Virus record (IMG/VR): IMGVR_UViG_3300042946_000199
Location: 1 to 32,225 of that record
Length of the DNA stretch: 32,225 nt
Reading direction: 5' to 3' (one strand)
From: a virus
Both the position numbers and the translations under genes were made by a program. Within the stretch, counting starts at the first letter, position 1, and each line of letters begins with the position of its first letter. The notes below the pieces were generated by a model. The model ran no database searches. It had not been told where the DNA came from and was given only the letters and a program-made list of their open reading frames with translations. Shown here piece after piece: positions 7,481-31,115 of the stretch.

Positions 7481-7723
7481 ATGGCATCGTTCACCAAATC
7501 CGATGTTGTAACATTCGGGGATTTTTTTGCCCAATTAACCGAAATGGAAATCAATTTTGTGATTACTCATTTAAATCGGAACAACACATTGGGATATCAA
7601 ACATTCCATTCAAACGTGAAAACCTTGGATGCATCATTTATCAAAACATTTGTAAACGAATTGAACGTTGGTGTTATCGGCCAAATCATCGTTCAATCAA
7701 TCAATAATCGAATGGCCGTTTAA
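7481..7723 (+). CDS. Unknown small early protein (80 aa)
   Basis: A soluble protein with alternating hydrophobic residues and a C-terminal helix ending NNRMAV. No motif or family is recognised. It is tightly linked to the gene before it and 18 bases ahead of the coiled-coil-like gene at 7742. It is the last of the run of unknown small early genes. Confidence 0.55.
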   Translation: MASFTKSDVVTFGDFFAQLTEMEINFVITHLNRNNTLGYQTFHSNVKTLDASFIKTFVNELNVGVIGQIIVQSINNRMAV

Positions 7724-25178: not shown

Positions 25179-27098
25179 ATGATATCAATTGATGAAATCC
25201 CGGCATTGTTGGGCAATGAAAAATACAAGCCAAAAAATTATGACCATTGGAACCGGGTTCGTGAAACCATGTTCATCCATACACGTGGCAAAAATCCCGG
25301 CGAAATTTTAACCCGGAGGCGGCCAAATGAGGATGATGATGTGAAACGTTATCGATTGGCCATTTATGAACCAATCACAAAGGGTTCAATGAATCGTGCC
25401 ATTGATAAATTGTTCCGGATTTTCCAAGGTGCCAATTTTTCGATTTCGGTTTCCGATGAATTGAACACGTATTTATCGGAACAAAAATTTGATGGGCAAT
25501 ATTTTTATTCATATATCCAAAAATATGTTGTTAGGCGAATGATTGAAGACCCGAACGGATATTTGGTTTGGGTTCCGGTTGGGGATGGGTTGGTTAACCC
25601 GGCGGCAAAAGTTGATGTGCAACCGGTGTTGATTATGAGTGATGAAATAAAGGTGTTGGATAACAACATCATCACATGGGAATCGGAGGATGAAAAATCA
25701 ATGGTTCGTGTAAATGGGAAAATGGTTGAATCCGGTGAAATTTATTATTCCTTAACCGATACCGGATATTTTAAACACGTTCAATTCGGGCAAAAACACG
25801 AACACAAGTTCGAAACGTTTTTGATTTACGAACACAACATTGGTTCGGTTCCGGCCGTGATTTTGGGTGGTGATTACACGGATGAAAATTTTTTCGATTC
25901 GTATTTTTCGGCATTTATTCCATTTGCAAACGAGGCAATCCGGCAATATTCGGATTGGACGGCCGTAATGACAACATCCGCGTTCCCATATCGTGAGGAA
26001 ATGGCCGAAACATGTTCGGCCAAAGGTTGCCGGGATGGTGTTGTTTACAACCCGGATAACGATGAACATGAACGTTGTGGTGTTTGTAAGGGTGCCGGCA
26101 AAGTTATTTCACGTTCACCATTCGGTGTTTTCATGCGTGAAAAAGGGAATGCCGCAATGGGTGGGGATTCGGGTTCATCCGAACCAATGTTGAGGTTTAT
26201 TTCACCGGCCGTTGATATCATTGAATATTCCGGGAATGCATGGGAAACATTATTGAAAAAGGCCGAACAATCGTTGCATTTAAATGTAATCGATGAATCA
26301 CAATCCGGGATTGCAAAACAAATCGATAGGGAAGATTCATTTTCACAATTAACCAAAATTTCCAACAACATATTTGATGAATTAATTTATAAATCGTTGT
26401 TGTTTATTGAAGCATATCGAAACGTGGTTGAACCGGTTGCACCGGTGATTGTTAAACCCATTTCGTTTTCCATGAAAACCGAATCGGATTTGATAACCGA
26501 AATCACAACATTAACCGATAAAAATGCACCGGTGGCATTTTTGGTTGAATCAACCAAAGATTTGGCCCGGAAACGTTTTTCCGGGAATAAATCGGTTACA
26601 CGAATGGTTGAGGTTTTGGTAAGTTATGACCCATTGTTTAACATCAAAACAACCGATAAACAAATGTTGTTGGCATCCGGCACAATTCAAAAAGCCGATT
26701 TAATCCGTTCGTTGTATGCATATCGAACATTAACCAATTTGGTGGCCTTAAATGGAACCGAATTTTTGGAACAACCATTGCCGGATTTGTTTTTGGCATT
26801 GGATAATGCAATGGCACCAATCATTGATAAATACATCCCGAAAACAATTATTGATGTTGGTGCAACATCCGGCATTGATGCCGAATTCCAACGAACACAA
26901 GCCGAAGCACAAGCCAATTTAAAGGGTTCCGTTGGTGGTGTACAAGGTATTTTACAAATCCAACAATCGGTTGCCAATGGTGTAACGGATTATTCGGCCG
27001 CAATTTCGTTGTTGGGAGTTATTTACGGAATTGAGGAACAAACGGCCCGTGAAATTTTGGGAACACCAAAACCGGCCGCATCGGAAACGAATATTTGA
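25179..27098 (+). CDS. Portal protein with Zn-ribbon-like insertion (639 aa)
   Basis: The portal forms the dodecameric gate for DNA entry and exit. The protein has the size, helical C-terminus and position (directly before a MuF-type gene and the capsid genes) of SPP1-type portals, and N-terminal DHWNRVRETMFIHTRG followed by a YEPITKGSMNRAIDKL block resembles portals of Bacteroidota phages. Cys279-x4-Cys284 and Cys300-x2-Cys303, with GCRDG and CGVCKGAGK contexts, form a DnaJ-like zinc ribbon half. It sits in a region that in portals faces the clip or stem. The insertion is unusual. Confidence 0.72.
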   Translation: MISIDEIPALLGNEKYKPKNYDHWNRVRETMFIHTRGKNPGEILTRRRPNEDDDVKRYRLAIYEPITKGSMNRAIDKLFRIFQGANFSISVSDELNTYLSEQKFDGQYFYSYIQKYVVRRMIEDPNGYLVWVPVGDGLVNPAAKVDVQPVLIMSDEIKVLDNNIITWESEDEKSMVRVNGKMVESGEIYYSLTDTGYFKHVQFGQKHEHKFETFLIYEHNIGSVPAVILGGDYTDENFFDSYFSAFIPFANEAIRQYSDWTAVMTTSAFPYREEMAETCSAKGCRDGVVYNPDNDEHERCGVCKGAGKVISRSPFGVFMREKGNAAMGGDSGSSEPMLRFISPAVDIIEYSGNAWETLLKKAEQSLHLNVIDESQSGIAKQIDREDSFSQLTKISNNIFDELIYKSLLFIEAYRNVVEPVAPVIVKPISFSMKTESDLITEITTLTDKNAPVAFLVESTKDLARKRFSGNKSVTRMVEVLVSYDPLFNIKTTDKQMLLASGTIQKADLIRSLYAYRTLTNLVALNGTEFLEQPLPDLFLALDNAMAPIIDKYIPKTIIDVGATSGIDAEFQRTQAEAQANLKGSVGGVQGILQIQQSVANGVTDYSAAISLLGVIYGIEEQTAREILGTPKPAASETNI

Positions 27099-27101
27099 TA
27101 A

Positions 27102-28784
27102 ATGGCCGAATTCACCGAACAAATATTTGATATCATTGAAAAAAAGGATTCCGCAATCAACACGGGTGAATCCAAATTGTTGGAACAATTGGGGCCAACC
27201 GAAAAATTGATTTTTGCCGATATCAAAAAATTGATTGATAAATTCAACGTTTCGGGTGGTAAAATTGAATTCAATGAATCAAATGTGGAATTGGTTAACC
27301 AAATCAATCAAACGATTGTTGATGCAATCCAAAAATCCAAAATGCCGGGAACAATCCGTGAATTTTTACGGGATTTTGATACGATAAAGGAATTCAACGT
27401 TGATGTTCATTCCAAATTAAACGGATTATCCACAAAGGAATTGGAGGATTTGATTAACCCAATTCAACGTGGTGTGGTTCAACAAACATTGGATGGGTTA
27501 ACCGGGGCCGGGGTTGATGCAAATTTCATCGAACCGGTAAAACAAGGTATTTACAAAAACATTGTTGGTGGTGCAACCCGTTCGGATTTGGAAAATTTTT
27601 TAAGGGCCTATGTTGTTGGAACACCGGAATTGAATGGTTTATATTCCCGTTATGTGAAACAAGTTTCCCGGGATGCATTGGGCCAATTTGATGGGCAAAT
27701 AAACGCGAAAATTGCGGAGGAATTCGGGTTGGATGCGTTCCGTTACGTTGGTTCAATCATCGATGATTCACGGGCACAATGTGTTCGATGGGTTGGCAAA
27801 CGTATTTTGGAAAAATCCGAAATGGAATCCGAAATTAATTGGGCCAACAACAATGGTTCGGGGATGATTCCCGGAACAAACCCGGATAATTTTTTGATTT
27901 ACCGGGGTGGTTACAATTGCCGGCATCGTGCCATTCCGTTTAAACTGACAAAATCACAACGTGAACGATTGCAAAAGGAACAAACAACCGAGGCAACAAC
28001 CGAAAAAATAAAATTTGAACCGGATAAATCATTAAATGATGCATTAAAACGGGCCGAACAAAATGGTTTTGCGGTTTATCATTCCGGTGATAATCTAAAA
28101 AATAAAATTATTGAAACACAAATGTTTGGCGAAACATTTGGAAAAACGATTGATGAACAAAAAAATGAAATTCAAAAATTGTTTAGAGAAAATAAAATCA
28201 ATGAATTGGATGAAAAAACAAAATTGCAAATCGTAAATTCGGCAAATGAATTTTATTTTAATAATCCAAAATTGAAAAAAATTGATTTGGTTTTATTTGA
28301 TTCCGAATCAATAAATAATGTTGCACAATACGAACCCATTTCGGATTCAATTGTTTATCCAAACAAAAAAAATTTAATTGATTTCACAAAGGATAAAACC
28401 GAAAAAATTGATTCAACAAATGTTGGTTTTGCAAGTGATAAATATGAAAACAAATTTTTGGGGGTTTATTCCCATGAATATGCACATTTTTATGATTTGA
28501 GAGATTTGCCACGTGAAAAAAGATTATCAACTAACATTAATGCATACAACAACAACAAAAAATTTTTTGATGAAAATTATAAAAAAATTGAATCATTGAT
28601 TTCGATTTATGGGGCCGATGAATTTAAGGCAACCGAATTTATTGCTGAATTATGGGCAACAAAATGGAATCCACAATACGATTTATTGCCGGATGAAACA
28701 AAATCATTTATTGAATCAATTATTAAAACATTTGGTTCATTAAATGAAAATTCATTGGAAGATTGGCGAAAATTGATTATTTAA
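27102..28784 (+). CDS. MuF-type minor head protein fused to an HExxH metallopeptidase-like domain (560 aa)
   Basis: Residues 1-290 are a minor head protein of the SPP1 gp7/MuF type, with RAYVVGT near 168, DDSRAQCVRWVGK near 221-233 and YNCRHRAIPF at 271-280. After a Thr/Glu-rich joint (about 291-310) comes a second domain with SHEYAHFYD, a zinc HExxH motif (His458, Glu459, His462), and FIAELWA (Glu516) as a possible third ligand. Polymorphic toxin domains fused to MuF proteins are known in phages, and zincin-type peptidases occur among phage-injected effectors. The DNA from about 28000 to 28784 is AT-richer and uses codons avoided elsewhere, suggesting separate origin. The target is unknown. 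Confidence 0.78.
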   Translation: MAEFTEQIFDIIEKKDSAINTGESKLLEQLGPTEKLIFADIKKLIDKFNVSGGKIEFNESNVELVNQINQTIVDAIQKSKMPGTIREFLRDFDTIKEFNVDVHSKLNGLSTKELEDLINPIQRGVVQQTLDGLTGAGVDANFIEPVKQGIYKNIVGGATRSDLENFLRAYVVGTPELNGLYSRYVKQVSRDALGQFDGQINAKIAEEFGLDAFRYVGSIIDDSRAQCVRWVGKRILEKSEMESEINWANNNGSGMIPGTNPDNFLIYRGGYNCRHRAIPFKLTKSQRERLQKEQTTEATTEKIKFEPDKSLNDALKRAEQNGFAVYHSGDNLKNKIIETQMFGETFGKTIDEQKNEIQKLFRENKINELDEKTKLQIVNSANEFYFNNPKLKKIDLVLFDSESINNVAQYEPISDSIVYPNKKNLIDFTKDKTEKIDSTNVGFASDKYENKFLGVYSHEYAHFYDLRDLPREKRLSTNINAYNNNKKFFDENYKKIESLISIYGADEFKATEFIAELWATKWNPQYDLLPDETKSFIESIIKTFGSLNENSLEDWRKLII

Positions 28785-28800
28785 AAAATTTGTAATTTTG
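28773..28800 (+). promoter_or_regulatory. Candidate promoter TTG-N17-TAATTTTG before the head genes
   Basis: TTG 28773-28775 and TAATTTTG 28793-28800 are 17 bases apart, within the accepted range for the Bacteroidota pattern. It overlaps the end of the MuF fusion gene and lies 22 bases upstream of ATG 28823. It would allow scaffold and capsid genes to be transcribed apart from the upstream long operon. Confidence 0.5.
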
Positions 28801-28822
28801 AACAAACCCAAATAAATAAATC

Positions 28823-29092
28823 ATGGAAAAAATACGAATTCAAAATGTTCGAACCGGTAAGGTGATGGAAATTACCAAAATGGCATGGGAACAATTAAAA
28901 ATTGGCGGCCATTCAAAAATTTTTGATTTGATACCATCCGAAAAACCGGTGATTAAATTTAATGTTTTGAAACCGGAACCAACATCGGAGGAAACAACAT
29001 TGGAGGAAACAACATCGGAGGAAACAAAACCCGAACCGATTGAATCAACCGAACCAACACCGAAAAAACGCACACGAAAAACAACCAAATAA
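28823..29092 (+). CDS. Small head-region protein with acidic repeat and basic tail (89 aa)
   Basis: Residues 1-45 form a compact domain (IRIQNVRTGKVMEITKMAWE). Then comes a low-complexity segment with imperfect 5-residue repeats TSEET, TLEET, TSEET, coded by matching 15-base DNA repeats, then Pro/Glu/Thr and a strongly basic end KKRTRKTTK. The acidic-then-basic tail suggests binding to capsid or DNA. It overlaps the scaffold start by one base. A candidate promoter lies just upstream. Function not established. Confidence 0.6.
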   Translation: MEKIRIQNVRTGKVMEITKMAWEQLKIGGHSKIFDLIPSEKPVIKFNVLKPEPTSEETTLEETTSEETKPEPIESTEPTPKKRTRKTTK

Positions 29093-29916
29093 TGAAAAAC
29101 GTTGAATCATTTTTAAAACAAATCGGTGTTCCGGCCGATTCAATTTCCAAATTAACATCGGAGGAAACAACATCAATTGATGAAATCGTTTCGGGTTTTA
29201 AGGCAACACAACGTGATGTTTTGAAAAATGACCCGGAATTCATCCAACCAATAAAGGATGAAATACGTGGTTCCGAATTATCGAAAATCGAACACAAAAT
29301 GAAAAAGGTGTTTGCATTATCGGCCGATGATGTACGTGATAAAAAATTCGATGAAATTATTTCCATTGCATATGATAAGGCAAACAAATCATCCGTGGAT
29401 GGTGCCGAATCATTACAACAAAAATTGATTGAGTTAACCAACGAAAATAAAAGATTGGTTGATGAAATCATCCCGGCAAAGGAATCGGAGGCGAAAAACG
29501 CAATAAAATCATTCAAACGTGAATCAATCATAAACGGCATCATTGCCAAAAAATCGTTGATTGTTTCACCGGATGTTGTTTTGCCGGCCGTGAATAATTA
29601 TTTGAATACCAATTTCAATTTGGATGTTGATGATGCCGGGCAATTAATCGTGAAAACCAAAAACAATTTGAATCCATTGAATACCGATGGAACAAAAATC
29701 ATTACATTTGATGAAATTTTGGATTCACATTTGGCAACGTTGGGTGTGGTGAAACAATCGAATGCATCACCATCAACAACAACACCGGGTTTAAATCCAA
29801 AACCGAATCCGAATCCATCACCGGAACCGAATTCAAAATTCAATTTGGTTGGTTTGAAAAAAGCCGAACAAAATGCCGAATCTTTGAAATCGATGAAAGT
29901 GTTTGGTAAGGAATAA
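29092..29916 (+). CDS. Capsid scaffolding-like protein (274 aa)
   Basis: The protein is highly charged and helical, with a likely coiled coil around residues 100-150 (ESLQQKLIELTNENKRLVDE). A Pro/Asn/Ser-rich linker with PNP repeats spans about residues 224-245, and a short helical, basic end (LVGLKKAEQNAESLKSMKVF) follows. Charged helical proteins with a short basic C-terminal helix directly upstream of the capsid gene are typical scaffolds, which guide shell assembly through that helix. No protease motif is seen. Confidence 0.65.
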   Translation: MKNVESFLKQIGVPADSISKLTSEETTSIDEIVSGFKATQRDVLKNDPEFIQPIKDEIRGSELSKIEHKMKKVFALSADDVRDKKFDEIISIAYDKANKSSVDGAESLQQKLIELTNENKRLVDEIIPAKESEAKNAIKSFKRESIINGIIAKKSLIVSPDVVLPAVNNYLNTNFNLDVDDAGQLIVKTKNNLNPLNTDGTKIITFDEILDSHLATLGVVKQSNASPSTTTPGLNPKPNPNPSPEPNSKFNLVGLKKAEQNAESLKSMKVFGKE

Positions 29917-30092: not shown

Positions 30093-31115
30093 ATGGCCTT
30101 TACTGAAGGATTATGTCAAAAACTACAAACAAGTTTAAACGCGGTTGCCGGACAAAATGCACCGGCGTTAAAACGCGACCGGGTTGGTTACGTTGATGCG
30201 TTAATGAGTGAGGAAAACCGGGCCGGTTTTGAGGCAATACCGGTTCCATCGAACGGAAAATATCGTGCCGTTCAAATCGATTACATCCAACGCGGAACGG
30301 CGGCCGATGTGAATTTTACGTGTACCAATTCATGTGAAACAACACGTGAACCGGCACCAAAACAAACCATTTTTGAGGTTGATAATTGTTTGGAAACCAA
30401 AGGAATGAAATTTGTTGAGGATGAAATGCGTAAATTGTGCGAAGCCGATTCGGTTTATGTTTCAAATGTGATTATGGCACAAATGAATGCATTGAACGTT
30501 GGGTTGAACAAACAATTGTTAACATTACAATCAACCAATTTTGGAAACTTTGCCGATGGAACGCAATTAAAAGAGGTTAAGTTATTTGAACCAACAACCA
30601 ATTCGCCACGTGCAATTGCGGCCGCACAAATTCGCCACGAATATGATAATGTGGGTGGTTCGGGTGCGCCAATGATAATTGGTTCGGGCAATTTCGATTT
30701 GTATGCAAAAACACAACAAATTGCATGTTGTAACTCAACAACCGGAACCGATATGGCCCGTTGGACGGATTACATGTATTTTAACGATAGGTTTGTTGAA
30801 TCAATCATTGGTGCAAACCATTTCATCGTTTTGGCACCGGGTGCCGTTCAATTGGTTACGTGGAACAAATATGTTGGGGATTACGCAAAACGAAATGATG
30901 TGTTTGAACATGGCACAATCACCGACCCATTCACCGGGTTAACATATGATTTAAAGGTTCATTATGATGATTGTGCGGATGAATGGAGCATTAAATTATT
31001 CCTCAATTGGGGATTGTTTTTCATTCCGGCCAATGCATTTGGTGCCGGTGATAATAACGTTGGGGTTAATTACACGTTCGATTTTGAGGATTGTTCAACA
31101 ATCGTTGAATGCTAA
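30093..31115 (+). CDS. Major capsid protein (340 aa)
   Basis: The gene follows the scaffold, has the usual length for a capsid protein and a long structured leader, and its first codons depart from the genome style (ACT, CTA, AGT), as expected at the start of a highly translated gene. The protein is alpha/beta with no signal. It contains about ten Cys, including CTNSC near residue 77 and CC near 213. The end is FDFEDCSTIVEC. The HK97-type fold is assumed by family context; I cannot show it from sequence. Confidence 0.75.
   Translation: MAFTEGLCQKLQTSLNAVAGQNAPALKRDRVGYVDALMSEENRAGFEAIPVPSNGKYRAVQIDYIQRGTAADVNFTCTNSCETTREPAPKQTIFEVDNCLETKGMKFVEDEMRKLCEADSVYVSNVIMAQMNALNVGLNKQLLTLQSTNFGNFADGTQLKEVKLFEPTTNSPRAIAAAQIRHEYDNVGGSGAPMIIGSGNFDLYAKTQQIACCNSTTGTDMARWTDYMYFNDRFVESIIGANHFIVLAPGAVQLVTWNKYVGDYAKRNDVFEHGTITDPFTGLTYDLKVHYDDCADEWSIKLFLNWGLFFIPANAFGAGDNNVGVNYTFDFEDCSTIVEC

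Follow-up and report, generated by a model that had tools for sequence, protein, structure and literature searches.

The 560-aa open reading frame (ORF) at positions 27102-28784 of the virus record IMGVR_UViG_3300042946_000199 (IMG/VR) raises the question of what the C-terminal half of a phage head protein is for when it differs so visibly from the half before it. The whole stretch of DNA analysed, hereafter the window, is 32.2 kb long (positions 1 to 32,225 of the record), and in it this ORF joins a MuF-type half (about residues 1-298) to a different C-terminal domain (residues 299-560; hereafter the tail). A first-pass annotation made from the letters of the DNA had read the tail as a horizontally acquired peptidase effector, packaged in the head and possibly injected to cut a host defence or regulatory protein. 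Its premise that toxin domains fused to MuF proteins occur in phages agrees with Jamet et al. (2017; PMC5576092), who reported toxin domains on 191 of 1515 MuF proteins, metallopeptidases making up 20% of these, and described MuF-fused metallopeptidases as a class of predicted phage-delivered toxins.

The assignment of the N-terminal half to the MuF type is borne out by a weak match of PF06152 to residues 182-298 (E 6e-4, under the gathering score), by gene order and by its relatives. Residues 1-291 are 39-93% identical to 14 relatives, the homologous head-operon MuF proteins have the YNCRH core, and the half ends in the conserved RGGYNCRHxAIPFKLTKSQR, which is followed by a short linker. The gene also takes the MuF position in the window's order of portal - MuF - 89-aa gene - scaffold-like gene - capsid-like gene (Table 1); pelagiphage annotations show portal - MuF - scaffold - capsid in that order. 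The scaffold-like gene is kept 3' of the 89-aa gene in relatives, in an order like that of HTVC026P, and family searches with the capsid-like gene returned no match. The sole cellular-genome relative of the MuF half lies on a Bernardetia MAG contig, a hint that the host phylum may be Bacteroidota.

Table 1. Features of the window around the MuF-type head protein gene, with strand and basis of assignment.
Feature	Position	Strand	Basis
Terminase	13971		
Tape measure	16138		
Portal protein	25179..27098	+	phrog_7376 portal, E 6e-10
MuF-type head-protein half, residues 1-298	27102..27997	+	PF06152 weak match, relatives, gene order
Exchangeable AT-rich zincin-like cargo, residues 299-560	27998..28784	+	Borders from L021 comparison
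Predicted zinc-binding/catalytic helix motif VYSHEYAHF	28464..28490	+	PROSITE-type pattern match
Predicted third-ligand helix EFIAELWA (Glu512/Glu516)	28635..28658	+	Motif shared with L121
38-nt gap without ORF; 49-80-aa ORF at this place in zincin-tailed relatives	28785..28822	.	Gap comparison
89-aa gene (KIRIQNVRTGK...)	28823..29092	+	Conserved with or without tail
Probable scaffold protein	29092..29916	+	Position, charged composition
Probable major capsid protein	30093..31115	+	Position only, order as in HTVC026P

Comparison of close phages supports the view that the conserved head protein carries its tail as a module open to exchange. In all, 80 relatives of the MuF half were retrieved, and in the close clade the tail starts right after the conserved YNCRHxAIPFKLTKSQR. 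The DNA of the relative L021 is 87% identical to the window up to 27997 and 86% identical from 28783, with no aligned stretch at 27998-28782, where L021 has another zincin; this comparison puts the junction at 27998, so that the 27999 given on first pass was almost exact. In L001, identity of about 86% extends up to 27979 and is followed by the start of another tail, related to the zincins that we call type A. Type A tails are found in L008, L009, L012, L021 and others, and a second zincin type (type B) in L010, L013, L018 and L022; in L016 the same MuF ends in a zeta toxin (PF06414, E 3e-14), and the tail is absent from L017, L019 and L020. An HExxH motif occurs in 17 of 19 long tails, where shuffling would lead one to expect 0.12. 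A variable C-terminal domain on a constant N-terminus is a mark of MuF polymorphic toxins, and in close phages the cargo half is present, swapped or absent, and hence not constant. The downstream neighbours of L017 and L019 are the same as in the window although both are tail-less; since there are relatives with no tail or with a zeta toxin, the cargo is not needed to build the head. Two details of these relatives may be recorded here. The zeta cargo (L016:1907-2788) is followed by 328 nt in which the opposite strand has an ORF of about 70 aa, a possible antitoxin for it, and the type A-like cargo at L001:4885-5129 has an in-frame stop soon after the junction, near the contig end.

The junction is also a border of base composition. 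As had been noticed, the DNA becomes AT-richer from about codon 300: G+C drops sharply from about 40-40.2% upstream (codons 1-280, GC3 39%) to 26.5-26.6% in the tail (codons 301-560, GC3 19%); among all 780-nt stretches of the window, G+C is lowest here (0.256; mean 0.389, sd 0.032). The further claim that this part contains AG and CT words rare elsewhere did not hold, as both words are nearly absent throughout the genome, tail included (observed/expected in tail and rest of the window, respectively: AG 0.18 and 0.17, CT 0.11 and 0.05); some single words, for example AGA, are commoner in the tail. Nor are its synonymous codons rare ones for the genome; they follow the genome's usage with a shift towards A or T at the codon end. 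Because the tail has the genome's AG/CT depletion, it was most likely drawn from the gene pool that these phages share or has adapted over time. The proposed horizontal acquisition thus stands in part: the cassette borders show exchange by recombination, but a wholly foreign origin does not follow from them.

The depletion itself is a clade property. Six large genes of the window have no CAG against 190 CAA, no GCT among 324 Ala codons and no CTG, and AGG is partly spared (0.44). The close MuF clade has the depletion in common (L001, L002, L009-L017, L021, L096, L098-L105 and L110), with CT mostly at 0.02-0.15, and distant relatives are without it; a literature search on AG/CT depletion found nothing relevant and no explanation. 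The window also has no GATC against about 113 expected, and GTC at 0.01 of expectation, whereas L001, with about 86% DNA identity to it, shows 25 GATC in 5.1 kb. This contrast looks like the avoidance of a host restriction/modification target that differs between close phages.

What the tail encodes has to be read from its motifs. HEYAH (residues 458-462, 28473-28487) and the downstream Glu in FIAELWA, both pointed out on first pass, are present; the latter string starts at residue 513, within the helix motif whose EFIAE spans residues 512-516. VYSHEYAHF (residues 455-463) fits the PROSITE zinc-protease pattern, which 1e-4 of tail shuffles do (any HExxH, 0.0015), and sets the HExxH helix in the hydrophobic context that is expected of zincins. 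Searches for relatives of the tail gave no family match among sequence family profiles, none in a peptide-pattern scan, chance matches only in tblastn of phages and plasmids, no sequence relative among viral contigs, none in a scan with the DNA pattern HE[YF]AHFYD and none in 395 Bacteroidota genomes, where five weak matches leave the HExxH motif unaligned. Against type A, a single pairwise hhalign comparison gave E 5e-4 at a probability of only 30%, and by hmmsearch the likeness is restricted to the motifs; an AF2 model of the tail, built with distant rows, reached a pLDDT of 38.8. When all viral contigs were scanned for the second motif by itself (EF-x-AELWA), four matches came out. One of them, L121, lends independent support: in this unrelated protein, MuF-like by eye, EFIAELWAT lies about 60 aa after HEFGH, in the layout of the window. 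The other three, L120, L122 and L123, lack HExxH and were not considered further. As there are neither detectable relatives nor a confident fold, the assignment rests on these motifs, by which the tail is likely a zincin.

The sister cargoes at the same junction can be placed more firmly. In an alignment of 20 type A members, the H, E and H, one Asp and two Glu are invariant, and Pfam ATLF matches 9 of the 20. The type A profile, run against PDB sequences, finds the lethal-factor catalytic domain and the Pro-Pro endopeptidases (PPEP) at E 2e-4 to 3e-3. The predicted model of the L021 cargo (pLDDT 92.3, pTM 0.91) aligns with the lethal-factor catalytic domain at Z 13.1 and with PPEP-1 at Z 11.5 over about 160-169 residues. 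A Foldseek search of the PDB with this model had its best match at E 1.2e-3 (probability 1.0) and none under E 0.001. For the fold we therefore rely on the VIA Z-scores together with the sequence profile; on these, the L021 cargo is confidently predicted to be a lethal-factor/PPEP-type zincin. Type A zincins occur on three different head-protein carriers, among them a portal-MuF protein (L113, L115) and a second MuF type (L116, L117), as expected for shared toxin cassettes. In L113 and L115 the zincin ends a protein of roughly 990 aa, by eye a portal-plus-MuF fusion. The 1194-aa MuF protein of L081 (gene ending at 7609) combines a HEFGH zincin with another region, similar to L078, that by eye is ADP-ribosyltransferase-like.

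The window departs from these sisters in what follows the gene, a point that the first-pass annotation had missed. An ORF of 49-80 aa, 66 aa in L021, lies directly 3' of all 30 distinct zincin-tailed head proteins found (28 non-redundant ones plus L121 and L125), starting within about ten bases of the tail stop and in many cases overlapping it by 4 nt; the window has no such ORF. The gap to the conserved next gene is accordingly 217-307 nt in zincin-tailed relatives, against 43 nt in L017, 30 nt in L019 and 38 nt in the window. The ORF families track tail type, and type A ORFs are homologous even where the MuF halves are only 31-35% identical to that of the window. Such downstream ORFs are immunity genes according to Jamet et al. 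(PMC5576092), found in 89% of cases, that is, usual but not obligatory. A search for a small ORF elsewhere in the window gave chance matches only, and for a small ORF fused into the tail no support was found; the 89-aa gene was ruled out as an immunity gene, since tail-less relatives carry it too. A small gene after MuF is not specific, as some distant tail-less phages have one and the tail-less L020 has an unrelated one, and the argument for a partner therefore rests on gap size and on the match of ORF and tail type within the clade. The window's cargo stands without its usual partner ORF, and the small ORF directly downstream that usually marks a MuF toxin is missing here.

An orphan of this kind might be a decaying or inactive cassette whose partner ORF was lost and on which selection is weak; this would fit the extreme AT richness of the tail, its lack of relatives and the in-frame stop within the tail of the near relative L001. 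We regard this as unlikely, because the frame is intact over 262 codons, the zinc-peptidase pattern and the second motif are both complete, and active fast-evolving toxins can be without relatives as well. A head-maturation or self-processing peptidase, trimming MuF, scaffold, portal or capsid and not directed at the host, would suit a gene within the head operon, and a harmless enzyme could do without a partner; self-processing has been proposed for zincins in phage polyvalent proteins (PMC5512222). Such a role nevertheless appears improbable to us, given that L017 and L019, with no tail, and L016, with a zeta toxin, keep the same downstream gene order and that three short-tailed pelagiphages do without the peptidase. 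That HEYAH is a chance motif in an unrelated host-interaction or structural domain would accord with the missing family match and the AF2 pLDDT of 38.8 but is very unlikely in view of shuffle frequencies of 1e-4 to 1.5e-3 and of the HExxH in nearly all other long tails at the same junction.

By architecture and modularity, the best reading of the protein's class is the MuF polymorphic toxin type (Zhang et al., 2012, PMC3482391; PMC5576092), with which it shares the MuF N-terminus and an exchangeable, toxin-like C-terminal domain. Metallopeptidases are one class of these toxins, and the small downstream ORF recurs in the window's relatives; the window differs in having no such ORF and a peptidase domain that matches no named family. 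A metallopeptidase cargo on a MuF toxin is a known kind, of which the window would be a variant without the small partner gene. The MPTase of polyvalent proteins (Iyer et al., 2017, PMC5512222; Pfam MPTase-PolyVal) is likewise a virion-linked, HExxH zincin-like domain with a Glu on the following helix, and the HEYAH-FYD of the window puts an Asp three residues after HExxH, as in one phage-type clade (PMC5512222). However, polyvalent proteins are multi-domain giants, whereas the window has a single cargo domain on a MuF protein, and the MPTase-PolyVal profile does not match its tail significantly (for type B tails there is a weak match, E 1e-4). The lethal-factor/PPEP (M34-like) zincins have the layout of HExxH and downstream Glu in common with the tail, which shows no sequence match to these families, has a different carrier and delivery and lacks a cell-binding or translocation part. 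Among cultured phages, a close counterpart is HTVC026P gp30-gp31, where a MuF head protein likewise ends in an HExxH domain (ATLF, E 8e-4); it differs in zincin subtype, in having a small ORF and in infecting SAR11 bacteria. The MuF-zincin of this pair (L004:4347-6345) is unannotated and overlaps a 60-aa ORF. HTVC111P, HTVC112P and HTVC202P, related to HTVC026P, have a short MuF only.

MuF proteins are present in a few copies at the portal. For the window tail, we infer fold, activity, packaging, injection and target, and we think it probable that the ORF encodes a minor head protein whose conserved N-terminal half is the virion anchor. Its C-terminal 262 residues are a swappable cargo, which most likely is a zinc metallopeptidase and belongs to the zincin superfamily. 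By analogy with other MuF proteins, the cargo would be packaged in the virion; it would then enter the host together with the DNA, where it may cut a host protein early in infection.

The lifestyle of the lineage bears on how such a cargo might be used. Described MuF toxins are on temperate phages, and Jamet et al. saw none of the known toxin domains on MuF proteins from virulent phages (PMC5576092), whereas the window and 15 related records (several 30-46 kb long, many of them fragments) yielded neither a tyrosine integrase nor a resolvase. Nor is either annotated in the complete isolate HTVC026P, which has a MuF-zincin with a 60-aa partner. A non-integrating lifestyle is a lead, IMG/VR records being mostly incomplete. 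We offer as speculation, and at rather long odds, that apparently non-integrating phages carry swappable head peptidases and kinases to open infection, with partners that inhibit these enzymes during assembly and do not serve lysogen immunity; the orphan peptidase of the window, of a previously undescribed zincin type, would need no partner since the protein that it cuts, perhaps one of host defence, is missing while phages are being made or can then be cleaved without harm.

Should the cargo be injected, this lineage amounts to a natural experiment, in which virions that are nearly the same carry one peptidase or another, a zeta toxin or no cargo at all, and HTVC026P, with its annotated pair gp30-gp31, set against HTVC111P, HTVC112P and HTVC202P is the cultured counterpart. 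One could then examine directly how a MuF cargo affects infection and whether immunity is what the small ORFs provide.
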